Shown here in pieces: positions 35,015 through 45,552 of a DNA stretch of 64,000 nt. The DNA is from Bacteroidota bacterium (GTDB lineage: Bacteria > Bacteroidota > Bacteroidia > Chitinophagales > Chitinophagaceae), in NCBI GenBank assembly GCA_947451115.1, contig CANFXV010000001.1:1-64000 (forward strand), read 5' to 3'. Each line of letters opens with the position of its first letter. The stretch's first letter is position 1. The position numbers and the translations under genes were made by a program. A model generated the notes under the pieces. It made no database searches. It saw nothing but the letters and a program-made list of their open reading frames with translations, and was not told the DNA's origin.

Positions 35015-35578
35015 ATGCAACAATTATTGGCTTGGTGGTTATTTACTGTTCGAGGTTGGAAAATTGAAGGCAAATTTCATTTTGAATTGCCTAAGTCCAT
35101 CATTATTGTAGCACCTCATACCCATAGTGTTGATTTTTTCGTGGGCCTAGGCATTCGTAAAAGGATGCATTTTGAATTTGTACACTTTTTAGGCAAGCGT
35201 GAATTATTTTGGCCTCCCTTGGGTTGGTTTTTGCGTTCCTTAGGCGCCTATCCTGTGGATAGACACCAACAGCATAATATGGTAGACCAAGTGGTAGCCA
35301 TTTTTAATAAAAAAGAGCGCTTTCATCTTGCCTTGTCGCCAGAAGGTACCCGCAAAAAGGTGACTAAACTTAGATCGGGCTTTTATCATATTGCTAAAAA
35401 AGCCAATGTCCCCATTGTCATGGTAGGACTGGATTTTGGGTCCAGAAGGGTAGTTTTTGCAGAACCCTTTTTCCTCTCTGAAGACGAAAAAGCCGATAAG
35501 CATAAAATTGTGCAATTTTTTAAGGGTTTTAAGGGATATATTCCTAATTTGGGCATTACGGAAGACTTACTAGACTAG
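35015..35578 (+). CDS. lysophospholipid acyltransferase family protein (short form)
   Basis: This 187-aa PlsC-like protein has an H-x4-D catalytic motif in VAPHTHSVDFFVG, LGKRELFWPPLGWFLRSLGAYPVDR (motif II region), and SPEGTRKKVTKLRSGFYHIA (motif III, EGTR), then VPIVMVGLDFGSR (motif IV). It likely acylates a lysolipid at the inner membrane. It is shorter than typical PlsC (about 240 aa) and has no strong N-terminal span. The acyl acceptor is unknown. Another acyltransferase is at 60.8 kb. Confidence 0.85.
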   Translation: MQQLLAWWLFTVRGWKIEGKFHFELPKSIIIVAPHTHSVDFFVGLGIRKRMHFEFVHFLGKRELFWPPLGWFLRSLGAYPVDRHQQHNMVDQVVAIFNKKERFHLALSPEGTRKKVTKLRSGFYHIAKKANVPIVMVGLDFGSRRVVFAEPFFLSEDEKADKHKIVQFFKGFKGYIPNLGITEDLLD

Positions 35579-39895: not shown

Positions 39896-39935
39896 AAATA
39901 AAAAGGACGCAATAAATGTTGCGTCCTTTTTATTT
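39896..39935. terminator. bidirectional terminator between nfu and the KdnB-like gene
   Basis: AAATAAAAAGGACGCAA pairs with TTGCGTCCTTTTTATTT (17 bp) around a 6-nt TAAATG loop, with T-runs in both directions. The right arm touches the stop of the convergent gene. Confidence 0.88.
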
Positions 39936-41007
39936 ACAACTTTCCGTAAAGATCTCTCAATTTTTCTCTCGTAATCTTAGTTTCCCAATTAGGGCCTAAA
40001 GCGTTTTCCCATAAGGGTTTCATGCCTAATGATACATTGATCATGGTATCAAATTGTTCCTCAGTTAAGCCAGCACAAATACCAGTGGGGATTTCAATTT
40101 TATTTTTTTCTACCATGTATTTAAATTCTTCCACCCCAGCTGGATAGTATTCGGCTAAATGATTCATCACAATACAATTACCAATACCATGCTTAGTGCC
40201 TAACAAATAACTAAGGCCATAGCTTACTGCATGCGCTACACCTACTTGGCTATAGGCAATGCTCATACCGCCTGCAAAAGAAGCCATCATCAATTGATCA
40301 TCACATTCTTCATCCCATTTGTCTTTATGTACAAATATTTTTTGACATAGATCCAATGCTTTTTCTCCGTAGCTTTTACTAAACTCATTTAAAAAAGTAC
40401 CTTCCAAGCTTTCGATACAATGTATATAACAATCCATGCCGGTATAAAAACGCTGATTCACCGGAACGTTCTTTGTTAATTCAGGATCCAATACAATTTG
40501 ATTGAAGGGAGTAAAATCAGAGTTCATACCTAGTTTACGTGTAGGTCCCGTAAGCACCGTTGTACGACTTACTTCGGCACCTGTTCCACTTAAGGTAGGA
40601 ATACCTACTTTATATACCCCTGGTAATTTTACTAAGTCCCAACCTTGATAATCTGCTGAAGACCCTGGATTGGTCATCATTAAAGAAACCGCTTTAGCCA
40701 AATCTAAAGTAGAGCCGCCCCCAATACCTATAATACCACTCACTTCTCCAAACTCCTCTTTTAATTCAGCAGCCAAGGCATCTACTTGTTTGGTTTTAGG
40801 CTCCTGTGTTACATCCACATAAACTATTTTATCTTTTCCTTTTAAGGGAATTCTTCCAGCCAAGGGCTTGCCAACAAAAAAATGATCCAAGAAAAATATC
40901 ATTGGGAAATTGCCCTTACGATGAGGCGCAATAATTTCATCTAACTGATTAAAGGAGCCGCGACCATAAACCACATAGTCGACCATTTTAAAATTACGAA
41001 ACTGCAT
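39934..41007 (-). CDS. kdnB: iron-containing alcohol dehydrogenase, KdnB-like (Kdo 8-oxidase family)
   Basis: This 357-aa group III metal-dependent dehydrogenase has the cofactor loop GIGGGSTLDLAKAVSLM, GIPTLSGTGAEVSRT and metal-binding histidines in MDCYIHCIESLEG and VGVAHAVSYGL plus GTKHGIGN. The NPGSSADYQGWDLVK and SGTGAEVSRTTVLTGP segments recall Shewanella KdnB, which oxidises C8 of Kdo so KdnA can aminate it to Kdo8N. kdsB, encoding the CMP-Kdo(8N) activating enzyme, is 3 kb away on the same strand. No KdnA-like aminotransferase is in the window. The specific function is inferred from memory of the family. Confidence 0.65.
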   Translation of the reverse strand: MQFRNFKMVDYVVYGRGSFNQLDEIIAPHRKGNFPMIFFLDHFFVGKPLAGRIPLKGKDKIVYVDVTQEPKTKQVDALAAELKEEFGEVSGIIGIGGGSTLDLAKAVSLMMTNPGSSADYQGWDLVKLPGVYKVGIPTLSGTGAEVSRTTVLTGPTRKLGMNSDFTPFNQIVLDPELTKNVPVNQRFYTGMDCYIHCIESLEGTFLNEFSKSYGEKALDLCQKIFVHKDKWDEECDDQLMMASFAGGMSIAYSQVGVAHAVSYGLSYLLGTKHGIGNCIVMNHLAEYYPAGVEEFKYMVEKNKIEIPTGICAGLTEEQFDTMINVSLGMKPLWENALGPNWETKITREKLRDLYGKL

Positions 41008-41059
41008 ATGCTTACAATTAATGATAAAAACTTAAGTGAACACCCTACAAAGTTAGTTA

Positions 41060-42568
41060 TTACCAAATAGATTGTAGTGGATAAATCTGTAAATTTTTAA
41101 CCGATCCAGGACTGCTTGTATTTAAGATTTTTATGTTTTTATCGCTATGCACCGGAAAGGCCTGTACAGTAAATACAGATTCCCCATCATTGACAAACAC
41201 TTCAACAATACTGTTGTCAACAAATACCCTGAATTTAATTTTATCACTATTCGTATTTAAGGGTGCGGTGAAATAACGAATGTCAGAAAAAGAAGGATCA
41301 AAAGAAGCATTGGTTTTGGATCTATTGATAAATATTTTTTTCAATTGAGGTTCATAACCTATTTCTACCCCTCTAAAATCATCATTCAACACACTGATGC
41401 CTGTTTTTTCTGTACTAGTACTAGTTATTTCAAAATCACATTCATAGACGTCGGAGAGAATGCCAATAGCAGATAGCGCAATTGTTTGGTCTTTTAATTC
41501 AACAGCTGCTTTTTGGAAGGCTATTTTTTTTCTTAAAGAATTTAAACTAGCCATTGGCTTTTGTATCAATTGCCACTGGCCATTAATATTTTGAGCCCAG
41601 CTATTTCTTGGCAAAGACATGGCACCCTTCCAAGGGCTCGTTGGAATTTTTCTTGCATAACTCCAATTGTTGGCCCAGGCAATGGTCACTGGCAAATGAT
41701 TGGCGGGCAATTGGTTATAACTAATTCCTGCATAGTAATCAGGACCTGCATCTGGCCTTAGAATGCTGTTTTGATGTGGGTCTAGCATAAATTTTTCTCC
41801 ATCAAACTCCCCCATAAAATATTGCATTTTTTCACTCATAGAAACCTGCAATAACCATTTTTTTTCTTTTGAATTCAAAACAGGAATTTGAACTAAATCG
41901 GGACATTCCCATACACCCGTGGTATCTCCCAATGGACCAAAATCACTTAAAAATTTCCATTCCAATAAATTCTTACTTGAATAAAATTGTACTTGATGTT
42001 CTAGGGGAAGATTCACACACATGACCCAGTATTTTTTTGGTGCAAACCAAAATACTTTTGGATCTCTAAAATCTTTTTTACCTAAATCTAAGATTGGGTT
42101 CTTATTGTACTTGGTCCATGTTTTTCCATCGTCTACACTATAAGCAAGATGTTGTGCTTGTTTTACATTTTCGATATGGCCAGTATAAATAGCCACCATG
42201 GGCGGTTTTTGTTTGGTACCTAGGCCAGTGCTGTTGTTTTGATCATAGATACAGGTGCCTGAAAAAATCATGGTGTCTTTTAATTCAGGAATAGCTATTG
42301 GCTGATGTTGCCAATGAATTAAATCCTTGCTTGTGGCATGGCCCCAGGTCATATGGCCCCAGGTATTTTCAAATGGATTGAATTGATAAAATAAATGGTA
42401 GACACCTTTGACATAAACCAATCCATTGGGATCATTGGTCCAATTTATTTTTGGACTAAAATGATACTGAGGCCGATATTTTTCTTGATATAGTTTTTCC
42501 TGAGCCTTTACTTGGCTATGGTTTAAACAAATAGAAATAAATAAAATAGAAAATATTTTTTTATACAT
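41060..42568 (-). CDS. secreted GH32 fructanase (levanase/inulinase/invertase family)
   Basis: This 502-aa protein has a signal peptide (KIFSILFISICLNHSQVKAQ). The five-bladed GH32 catalytic domain shows NWTNDPNGLVY (nucleophile Asp), FSGTCIYD, FRDPKVFW (RDP stabiliser) and WECPDLVQI (acid/base Glu). The C-terminal beta-sandwich starts near residue 360 and ends with the FVDNSIVEVFVNDGE segment typical of the family. It hydrolyses beta-fructosides such as levan, inulin or sucrose. It lies 18 bp after the sugar transporter gene, forming a small fructose-utilisation operon without a SusC/D pair. Confidence 0.93.
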   Translation of the reverse strand: MYKKIFSILFISICLNHSQVKAQEKLYQEKYRPQYHFSPKINWTNDPNGLVYVKGVYHLFYQFNPFENTWGHMTWGHATSKDLIHWQHQPIAIPELKDTMIFSGTCIYDQNNSTGLGTKQKPPMVAIYTGHIENVKQAQHLAYSVDDGKTWTKYNKNPILDLGKKDFRDPKVFWFAPKKYWVMCVNLPLEHQVQFYSSKNLLEWKFLSDFGPLGDTTGVWECPDLVQIPVLNSKEKKWLLQVSMSEKMQYFMGEFDGEKFMLDPHQNSILRPDAGPDYYAGISYNQLPANHLPVTIAWANNWSYARKIPTSPWKGAMSLPRNSWAQNINGQWQLIQKPMASLNSLRKKIAFQKAAVELKDQTIALSAIGILSDVYECDFEITSTSTEKTGISVLNDDFRGVEIGYEPQLKKIFINRSKTNASFDPSFSDIRYFTAPLNTNSDKIKFRVFVDNSIVEVFVNDGESVFTVQAFPVHSDKNIKILNTSSPGSVKNLQIYPLQSIW

Positions 42569-42586
42569 TATCTTAATTTGATAAAA

Positions 42587-43933
42587 TTATTGAACTAATT
42601 TTTTTTGTAGTTCTTCTAAAGATACCCCTTTGGTTTCTGGTACTTTTAATAATATCCATACCAATTGCAAAGCCATCATGACACAAAAGAAAGCAAAGAT
42701 GGGCCAAGGATTGTCTTTGAAAATACCATGCGCACTGTCTAAAAATACAGGCGTAACCAAGGTAATCAAGGCGGCAAAAATCCAATGGATACTTGCTCCA
42801 AATGCTTGTCCCTTAGCACGAATTTGTGTAGGAAAGATTTCTGAAATCAATACCCAGATGACTGCCCCTTGTCCTATAGCATGTGCCGCTATAAATAACA
42901 ATAAGAAGCTCAACATAAATTCAGGTGCACTGTGGTGAATAAAGCCATAGGCCACCATCGCTAAACTAATGATGTAACCAAAAGAGCCAATAATTAACAA
43001 TGTTTTTCGACCAATACGGTCAATCAACCAAAGACCTACAAAAGTAAATACCAAATTCATTAAGCCTAGGGAGATAGAACTTAATAAAGAATTATTTTTT
43101 GCAAAACCCGCTTCTTCTAAAATTCTTGGTGCATAATATAAAAGAAAATTAATGCCAGATGCCTGATTAAAAAAAGCGACAAAAAAAGCAATGGATATAA
43201 TTTTGGTATGATGTTTGGTAAATAATTGAATCGCGCCTTGGGCTTTTTCTTGATCATAGGCCGTTTTAATTTCCTGAATGGTTTCATCAATATTTTCCAC
43301 ACCTACAATGGCTAAAGTTTGTCTTGCACCCGCTTCGTCGTTTTTAACAGAGAATAACCATCTTGGACTTTCAGGTAAGCCCAAGGTCATGATGGTATAA
43401 ATTCCAGAAGGAATTAACAATACGGCCAACATCCAACGCCAATCATTGGCTCCACCAAAACCTGCTAAAAAATAATTTGATAAATAAGCAATTAGAATAC
43501 CAAAGACAATATTGAACTGATACATACCTACTAGTTTGCCTCTATTATTTTTATTGGAGATTTCAGAAATATACGTTGGGGCTGCTACCGATGAAATACC
43601 TATGGCAATGCCTCCTATTAATCTAAAGAAAGAAAAGGTATATGGATCTTGTGCTAAAGCAGAACCAATGGCCGATGCAATAAACATGATCCCTAACCAG
43701 ATCAATACTTTTTTACGGCCATATTTTTCTGTAGGGGCACCTGCAAATACAGAGCCTATCACCGTTCCCCACAAGGCCATGGACATAATAAAAAATCCAT
43801 GAAACAAAGGGGTGGTATGCCAAAGCGCTTGTATAGGTTTATCGGCACCAGAAATAACTACCATGTCAAAACCAAAAATGAAACCGGCCAAGGCGGCTAC
43901 AACGGTAGATTGAAATAATTTTCCTTTGTTCAT
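42587..43933 (-). CDS. sugar porter family MFS transporter
   Basis: This 448-aa, 12-span major facilitator of the sugar porter family has FGFDMVVISGADKPIQ in the first span, APTEKYGRKKVLIWLG (loop 2-3), PESPRWLFSVK (family signature), QASGINFLLYYAPRI and the C-terminal VPETKGVSLEEL. It probably imports fructose or another hexose by proton symport, given the GH32 gene directly downstream. Its start is 40 bp downstream of the kdsB stop on the same strand. Confidence 0.92.
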   Translation of the reverse strand: MNKGKLFQSTVVAALAGFIFGFDMVVISGADKPIQALWHTTPLFHGFFIMSMALWGTVIGSVFAGAPTEKYGRKKVLIWLGIMFIASAIGSALAQDPYTFSFFRLIGGIAIGISSVAAPTYISEISNKNNRGKLVGMYQFNIVFGILIAYLSNYFLAGFGGANDWRWMLAVLLIPSGIYTIMTLGLPESPRWLFSVKNDEAGARQTLAIVGVENIDETIQEIKTAYDQEKAQGAIQLFTKHHTKIISIAFFVAFFNQASGINFLLYYAPRILEEAGFAKNNSLLSSISLGLMNLVFTFVGLWLIDRIGRKTLLIIGSFGYIISLAMVAYGFIHHSAPEFMLSFLLLFIAAHAIGQGAVIWVLISEIFPTQIRAKGQAFGASIHWIFAALITLVTPVFLDSAHGIFKDNPWPIFAFFCVMMALQLVWILLKVPETKGVSLEELQKKLVQ

Positions 43934-43973
43934 AGTTAAATATTAATATTATAAAGAAGGTTTCAGTAAATAA

Positions 43974-44696
43974 TTATTGTAAAAGTTTCGCTGCTTTTAT
44001 TAAATCTTCGGGTGTATCTATCTCTACGCCCATATAACTTGTAACCACCATTTTCATAGGAACGCCATTTTCTAAATAACGAAGGCATTCTATTTTTTCC
44101 GCAGCCTCTAGGGGTGACATAGGCCAATGGGTAAAATCAAGTAGGGCTTGTTTTTTAAAGGCATACACCCCAATATGTTCATAATAATTGATAGCAAGTT
44201 CTGTATTTCTTGCATAAGGAATAACGCTGCGTGAAAAAAACAAGGCGTTGCTATTTTTATCCACGGCTACTTTTACATAATTAGGATCAGCAATTAATTC
44301 AGTATTGGTTAATGCTTGCATAAGTGATGCTACTTGCACTATATCATCTTTAAAAACAGCAATGAGTTTTTCAAGAGGTTCTTTTTTTACAAAGGGTTCG
44401 TCTCCTTGTACATTCACCACAATATCTATAGCTAAATGTTCTATGGCTTCAGCTATTCTATCTGATCCACTTTCGTGTTCTTTTTTACTCATGATGGCCT
44501 TGCCGCCATTAGTGGTTATTTCATTAAAAATAATTTCACTATCAGTTACCACATATACTTCATCGAAGAGTCCTGTTGCCACTGTATTATCGTAGGTATG
44601 TCTAATTACTGTTTTATCACCTAAGGCCTGCATTAATTTTGCTGGAAAGCGTGTGGCCGCATAGCGGGCAGGAATAAAGGCTCCAATTTTAGTCAT
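43974..44696 (-). CDS. kdsB: 3-deoxy-manno-octulosonate cytidylyltransferase
   Basis: KdsB activates Kdo (or Kdo8N) to CMP-Kdo for the LPS inner core. This 240-aa protein has [16 protein letters not shown] (CTP loop), [25 protein letters not shown], the [12 protein letters not shown] region and [10 protein letters not shown]. Length and motifs are standard. The KdnB-like dehydrogenase nearby raises the possibility that its natural substrate is Kdo8N. It is 34 bp downstream of the sterol desaturase gene. Confidence 0.95.
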
Positions 44697-44730: not shown

Positions 44731-45552
44731 TTAATAATCTGATTTTATCGATTTATCAAAAGGTGCTTTTAATTGATAGGCCAAGGATTGATCTTTTGAA
44801 TTATCCATTACATCTAAGCCATAAATGATTTCATTCATGGGTGTATAATTATAAGTGCCTAAAAGACGGTCCCAGAAAGAAAAAATATTTCCATAATTAC
44901 TATCGGTTTGAGGTCGCTTTATATGATGATGAATTCTATGCATATTGGGAGAGACAATGATATAGCCAAAACTTTGATCAAACCATTTAGGAATTTTGAT
45001 ATTGGCATGATTGAATTGGGTAAGCACTACACTCAAGCTTTGATAAACCATGACCATCCACATGGGGCTGCCTAAAATTAATACTGCAAGAATTGCAAAA
45101 ACTGCTCTTACCACGGACTCTCCTGGATGATGTCTATTACCAGTAGTAGTGTCCACCTGTGTATCGGCGTGGTGCACCATATGAAATTTCCATAAAAATT
45201 TTACTTTATGTTCTATCATATGCACTAAATAAGCACCTATAAAATCTAATAATAATAAACCTGTAATGGCTTCTACCCATGGGCTGAGTTGAATGATATG
45301 AAGTAATCCAAAATTTTCTGCTACCGTCCAATCACTTACTTTAACCATGACCAAGGCAAATAAAAAATTAATGACAATGGTCGTGAAGGTAAAAAATAAA
45401 TTCAGGCCAGCATGTTTGAACTTATTGTACTTAAAATTAAATAAGGGTACAGCAATTTCCACCAACCAAAAAAAGGTGATACCGCCTGCTAATAATAAAG
45501 CCCTGTGTGCACTTGGTATATGTTCAAAATAGTTTTTGATGAGGTCAAGCAT
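44731..45552 (-). CDS. sterol desaturase/fatty acid hydroxylase family membrane protein
   Basis: This 273-aa integral membrane di-iron protein has about four spans and the three His clusters HMIEHKVKFLWKFHMVHHAD, NRHHPGE and MHRIHHHIKRP. The superfamily hydroxylates or desaturates sterols, carotenoids, sphingolipids or alkylglycerols. The specific substrate is unknown. The spacing of the His boxes is as in bacterial 'sterol desaturase family' proteins. It follows the dnaN terminator and heads a possible operon with kdsB, the transporter and GH32. Confidence 0.88.
   Translation of the reverse strand: MLDLIKNYFEHIPSAHRALLLAGGITFFWLVEIAVPLFNFKYNKFKHAGLNLFFTFTTIVINFLFALVMVKVSDWTVAENFGLLHIIQLSPWVEAITGLLLLDFIGAYLVHMIEHKVKFLWKFHMVHHADTQVDTTTGNRHHPGESVVRAVFAILAVLILGSPMWMVMVYQSLSVVLTQFNHANIKIPKWFDQSFGYIIVSPNMHRIHHHIKRPQTDSNYGNIFSFWDRLLGTYNYTPMNEIIYGLDVMDNSKDQSLAYQLKAPFDKSIKSDY

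Follow-up and report, generated by a model that had tools for sequence, protein, structure and literature searches.

Organization of the locus

The window, i.e. the whole stretch of 64,000 nucleotides analysed here, belongs to an assembly of 59 contigs and 2.12 Mb with a completeness of about 89%. Its minus strand carries a run of four genes in the order kdsB, MFS, GH32 and kdnB, which according to a check of the open reading frames are separated by intergenic gaps of 40, 18 and 52 bp. The first, kdsB (43974..44696, minus strand), was annotated as a synthetase of 240 aa for CMP-Kdo or CMP-Kdo8N (TIGR00466, 174 bits at a cut-off of 155), where Kdo8N stands for 8-amino-3,8-dideoxy-D-manno-octulosonate. 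It is followed by the genes of a sugar-porter MFS transporter (42587..43933, minus strand; TIGR00879, 327 bits), of a GH32 beta-fructosidase with a signal peptide (41060..42568, minus strand; Pfam PF00251/PF08244) and of a predicted orthologue of the Kdo 8-dehydrogenase/oxidase KdnB with 357 aa (39934..41007, minus strand; PF00465). The family identities of the GH32, MFS and KdsB proteins are backed by Pfam/NCBIfam profile matches. A sequence-only reading of this DNA had described a kdnB-like gene and kdsB on one strand with a GH32-transporter pair between them and no visible KdnA; the open reading frames agree with this description, and no kdnA was found around kdnB within the 64-kb window.

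Directly upstream of kdsB lies the gene of a fatty-acid hydroxylase family protein (44731..45552, minus strand; PF04116). This gene adjoins kdsB in many Chitinophagaceae loci, and a link to lipid modification is possible. The window further contains a PlsC-like acyltransferase (35015-35578); look-alikes, judged by eye, occur near and downstream of kdnB in other families (L185:9541-10089, L186:9956-10492 and L206:7088-7642).

KdnB and KdnA

In a search of all PDB chains the dehydrogenase of the window matched KdnB of Shewanella oneidensis (PDB 5k8c) over the full length with 461 bits, 57% identity and an E-value of 3e-137, and a second KdnB-like entry (3rf7) with 438 bits, while the best Fe-ADH other than KdnB reached 92 bits. 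In a tree with FucO and YiaY of E. coli as outgroup the protein groups with Shewanella KdnB and apart from these two enzymes. The resemblance to KdnB that had been noted from the letters is thereby confirmed, and a closer placement with other Fe-ADHs, which had been considered at the same time, was not found. The alignment shows the Asp/His/His/His metal site to be complete, with Asp192 (40432..40434), which corresponds to FucO Asp195 and is kept in 5k8c, 3rf7 and E. coli FucO, and with His196 (40420..40422), His259 (40231..40233) and His273 (40189..40191), all encoded on the minus strand. Judged by its sequence the iron-type dehydrogenase is a KdnB orthologue, and it is the sole Fe-ADH (PF00465) of the assembly. 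No NCBIfam model for KdnA or KdnB reached its cut-off in the NCBIfam profile search, and a search of a plasmid collection yielded no KdnB orthologue, the best match listed being at 31%.

PMC5125639 names KdnB as the characterised member of the family FeADH3 (cd08184) and as the enzyme that starts the synthesis of Kdo8N in Shewanella. The window protein shares the sequence class and the expected function of this family; the review gives the function for Shewanella only.

With regard to KdnA, the sequence-only reading had left two options, namely that the partner is encoded elsewhere or that the dehydrogenase has another role. A genome-wide search for the DegT family returned two full candidates. 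The strongest DegT/PF01041 match (L002 on contig C3) was rejected as KdnA because it scored 257-331 bits against WbpE/QdtB-type enzymes and 131 bits against KdnA. A KdnA-type aminotransferase was found on contig C2 (70578-71777): it matches S. oneidensis KdnA (5k8b) with 472 bits and 53.5% identity, the next enzyme reaching 176 bits, and it keeps the PLP lysine (Lys186), so that the assignment is based on orthology to 5k8b together with this residue. As the match to 5k8b lies far above the next enzyme, the KdnA partner exists in the genome, unlinked to kdnB. Of the two options the first one held, and the orthology of KdnB speaks against the second.

The profile search placed KdsA and KdsC above the cut-off in the same assembly, the window kdsB turned out to be its sole KdsB in the genome search, and a KdtA homologue on contig C3 was found only below the NCBIfam cut-off. 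Both kdnA and kdnB are present in the host genome, alongside genes for the synthesis, activation and transfer of Kdo.

KdnA and KdnB of S. oneidensis (PDB 5k8b and 5k8c) are reportedly the subject of Gattis et al. 2013 and Zachman-Brockmeyer et al. 2016. The host enzymes resemble them over the full length with 53.5-57% identity, keep the metal ligands as well as the PLP lysine, and are of a known kind. Unlike the system of S. oneidensis, the one described here belongs to a freshwater Bacteroidota host, its kdnA is unlinked, and a GH32-MFS pair lies between kdsB and kdnB.

Co-occurrence and gene clusters in relatives

In a sample of 346 genomes from across Bacteroidota, KdnA of at least 45% identity and KdnB of at least 48% identity occur in the identical 21 genomes (Fisher p about 5e-34), where one must keep in mind that both cut-offs were placed in gaps of the score lists after these gaps had been seen (45% vs 43% for KdnA, 48% vs 45% for KdnB). 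Under the cut-offs lie KdnA-like proteins at 40-43%, most of which come from the outlying family f37, and, in four genomes, KdnB-like proteins at 43-45%. In the order sample (n = 150 genomes) 12 possess both proteins and 1 possesses KdnB alone (47%). KdnB was found in about 88-89 of the 134-135 sampled high-quality Chitinophagaceae genomes. The loci whose kdnB is most similar belong to Chitinophagaceae, Sediminibacterium-like bacteria among them, and many are known from metagenome-assembled genomes of environmental samples. Cultured KdnAB-positive strains also exist, namely Sediminibacterium soli, Hydrotalea sandarakina and Niastella vici (kdnB at L056, L070 and L071).

One genome, G260, is a natural control for the association between KdnAB and KdsB. 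It has no kdnA match, two of the four metal ligands of its KdnB are replaced (His by Gln and His by Arg), and its KdsB carries Gly225. The KdnB homologue of this genome (L206:7643-10175) is decayed or repurposed.

The genes of the pair are found next to Kdo genes in several arrangements. At locus L183 kdnA, kdsB and kdnB follow each other with overlapping ends, at L192 the order is kdtA-kdnA-kdsB-kdnB, and at L184 it is kdnA-kdsB-HAD-kdnB. The more distant KdnAB pairs, here called type 2, are encoded as kdnA-kdnB-kdsA-kdsC-kdsB (L194, L197, L374 and L375), and L374 carries kdtA as well. The conservation of such clusters of kdnA, kdnB, kdsB, kdsA, kdsC and kdtA in relatives is an argument that the KdnAB pair is tied to Kdo. 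Among the 77 Chitinophagaceae genomes with a pair of the window's type (type 1) in which both genes could be placed, kdnB and kdsB share a contig in 61, and the start of kdnB lies at most 15 kb from kdsB in 49. Locus L043 shows the order of the window (dnaN-hydroxylase-kdsB-MFS-GH32-kdnB) with kdnA directly after kdnB, so that the simplest reading is that kdnA moved away in the lineage of the window.

The GH32 and MFS genes were rejected as part of the core pathway because at L017, L018, L020, L022 and L026, and also at L181 (genome G082), kdsB adjoins kdnB with neither of them in between. The GH32-MFS pair probably represents variable neighbours unrelated to Kdo8N. In many genera a GH32 gene immediately precedes kdnB, also when kdsB is located on the opposite flank. 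In Flavobacteriaceae-like genomes we further observed a HAD-family hydrolase between kdsB and kdnB (L184:8807-9499, L185, L186 and L206).

Residue 225 of KdsB

KdsB of the window carries Glu at position 225 (codon 44022..44024, minus strand), two residues ahead of the Mg-binding Asp227 (44016..44018, minus strand), which is invariant in the alignment and whose counterpart in Aquifex, Asp219, binds the catalytic Mg-A (PMC3149649). The window protein has the family and the invariant metal residues Asp99 and Asp227 in common with KdsB of E. coli and Aquifex (2y6p), while E. coli KdsB possesses Gly and Gln at the sites of Glu225 and Cys204. In an AF2 model residue 225 is located in a loop, for which reason we gave up the notion of Glu225 and Asp227 pointing to one side of a strand.

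Among the KdsB sequences at least 45% identical to that of the window, Glu225 is present in 23 out of 23 from genomes with the pair and in 0 out of 15 from genomes without it; column 225 is the best of 240. For a follow-up the Glu225 prediction was recorded first, and KdsB was then taken from about 110 further Chitinophagaceae genomes. Glu225 occurred in all 68 primary KdsB proteins of type-1 genomes, in 3 of the 37 without KdnB and in none of the nine from type-2 genomes, eight of which have Cys; the three KdsB proteins without Glu that type-1 genomes also encode are second copies. Overall, Glu225 was found in 91 of 91 genomes with type-1 KdnB, in 4 of 79 without KdnAB and in 0 of 13 of type 2. 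The four without KdnB are three Chitinophagaceae genomes (G517, G505 and G493) and one distant genome (G223). In type-2 genomes position 225 is Cys in 11 out of 13 and Cys or Ser overall, so Glu is not needed everywhere. In G545, the one of these nine type-2 genomes that lacks Cys, the cluster kdnA-kdnB-kdsA-kdsC extends to the end of the contig, and its own kdsB is therefore probably missing from the assembly.

The correlation (phi) with the KdnAB label is 0.96 for column 225, 0.84 for column 173 and 0.81 for column 127; column 202 correlates too. As columns 173 and 127 also correlate, part of the Glu225 signal is shared ancestry. Mapped on the joint tree, the KdnAB label shows 10 changes and the Glu state 12, and the two combined require only 13 steps, which indicates that changes of label and residue mostly coincide. 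We propose that Glu225 could make KdsB of the window favour the aminated sugar, and hypothesize that residue 225 might contact C8 of the sugar. KdsB of S. oneidensis favours Kdo8N, and presumably it has Glu at position 225, too.

Proposed pathway and alternative explanations

In the proposed pathway KdsA and KdsC would make Kdo, the C8 alcohol of which would be turned into an aldehyde by KdnB of the window using a metal and NAD(P). KdnA (contig C2) would then, with PLP, move an amino group onto C8, KdsB of the window would join Kdo8N to CMP, and KdtA (contig C3) would add the activated sugar to lipid A. Glu225, situated in the loop with Mg-binding Asp227, may tune KdsB to Kdo8N. The roles given to KdnA and KdnB are drawn from the work on Shewanella (cited in PMC5125639; reference 24 of PMC5036845). 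We consider it very probable that the host makes Kdo8N and that the base of its LPS carries this sugar instead of Kdo. Kdo8N in Bacteroidota is a strong and testable prediction from sequence comparison, and the interpretation given in the sequence-only reading largely holds.

The dehydrogenase could instead act on some other alcohol, e.g. in fructan or sugar catabolism together with the GH32 protein and the transporter, with the KdnA homologue being a separate aminotransferase. The unlinked kdnA of the host and the place of GH32 as the immediate upstream neighbour of kdnB in many relatives, with kdsB on the other side in L061, L063 and L066, would fit such a role, but the identical genome sets of KdnA and KdnB, the Kdo operons that exist without GH32 or MFS, the 57% identity to a characterised KdnB and the tracking of the pair by KdsB residue 225 make it extremely improbable. 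Synthesis of Kdo8N or a related amino-ulosonate by the pair exclusively for a capsule or another glycan, or just as a minor part beside Kdo, appears very improbable to us: the assembly has one KdsB and this bears Glu225, and the clusters L192 and L374 of relatives contain the homologue of the lipid A Kdo transferase, kdtA. This explanation draws on the KdnB-like and DegT genes beside cytidylyltransferases at L207 and L209, the latter apparently a polysaccharide export locus, and on the fact that the predicted preference of KdsB for Kdo8N is deduced from covariation.

The association of Glu225 with KdnAB could reflect shared KdsB ancestry only, with no change of specificity, as the type-1 KdsB sequences mostly cluster and columns 173, 127 and 202 correlate as well. 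We regard this as unlikely in view of the first rank of residue 225 among 240 columns with a perfect separation (23 vs 15) among sequences at least 45% identical, the mostly joint changes on the tree, Gly225 in the KdnA-less genome G260, and the Cys that the type-2 lineage has at position 225. Tentatively, and with slightly less than even confidence, we suggest that Kdo8N LPS may be widespread in Bacteroidota with two types of KdnAB, and that KdsB may have been retuned each time at position 225, where Gly/Ala/Ser would have given way to Glu in type 1 and to Cys in type 2, and residue 225 alone would tell Kdo from Kdo8N activation. Residue 225 offers a concrete site for a one-residue test of specificity.

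To our knowledge, lipid A and core are joined by Kdo in nearly all cases. The C8 carbon of Kdo8N gives an NMR signal near 44-45 ppm. With Kdo8N the inner core would gain an amino group, by which its charge and hence the binding of cations and cationic peptides should change. If lake and soil Bacteroidota use Kdo8N, a common LPS type has been overlooked so far. PMC6357163 calls Kdo8N a hallmark of Shewanella, and a review of 2011 treats it as a Shewanella feature (PMC3210612); automated annotation applies the name kdnB elsewhere, e.g. in Leptospira (PMC8510873). In the searchable literature, which covers few subscription journals, Kdo8N and Bacteroidetes are found together only in PMC3210612, and there for Shewanella; the spread of KdnAB in Bacteroidota and the covariation with KdsB appear to be new to this literature.

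Related loci

In family f37, an outlying family of Bacteroidota to which more than 50 of the 346 sampled genomes belong, the KdnA-like aminotransferase (40-43%) adjoins a divergent Fe-ADH with about 20% overall identity to KdnB (L207:7613-10502, L208:7258-9339 and L210), and at L207 a PseF-type cytidylyltransferase lies near this pair. The f37 loci look like a parallel module that oxidises, aminates and activates another amino-ulosonate. A further locus (L209:4072-12810) combines a KdnB-like enzyme (46%) with a different DegT aminotransferase and a protein of 539 aa with a cytidylyltransferase domain, in a setting that looks like a polysaccharide export locus.
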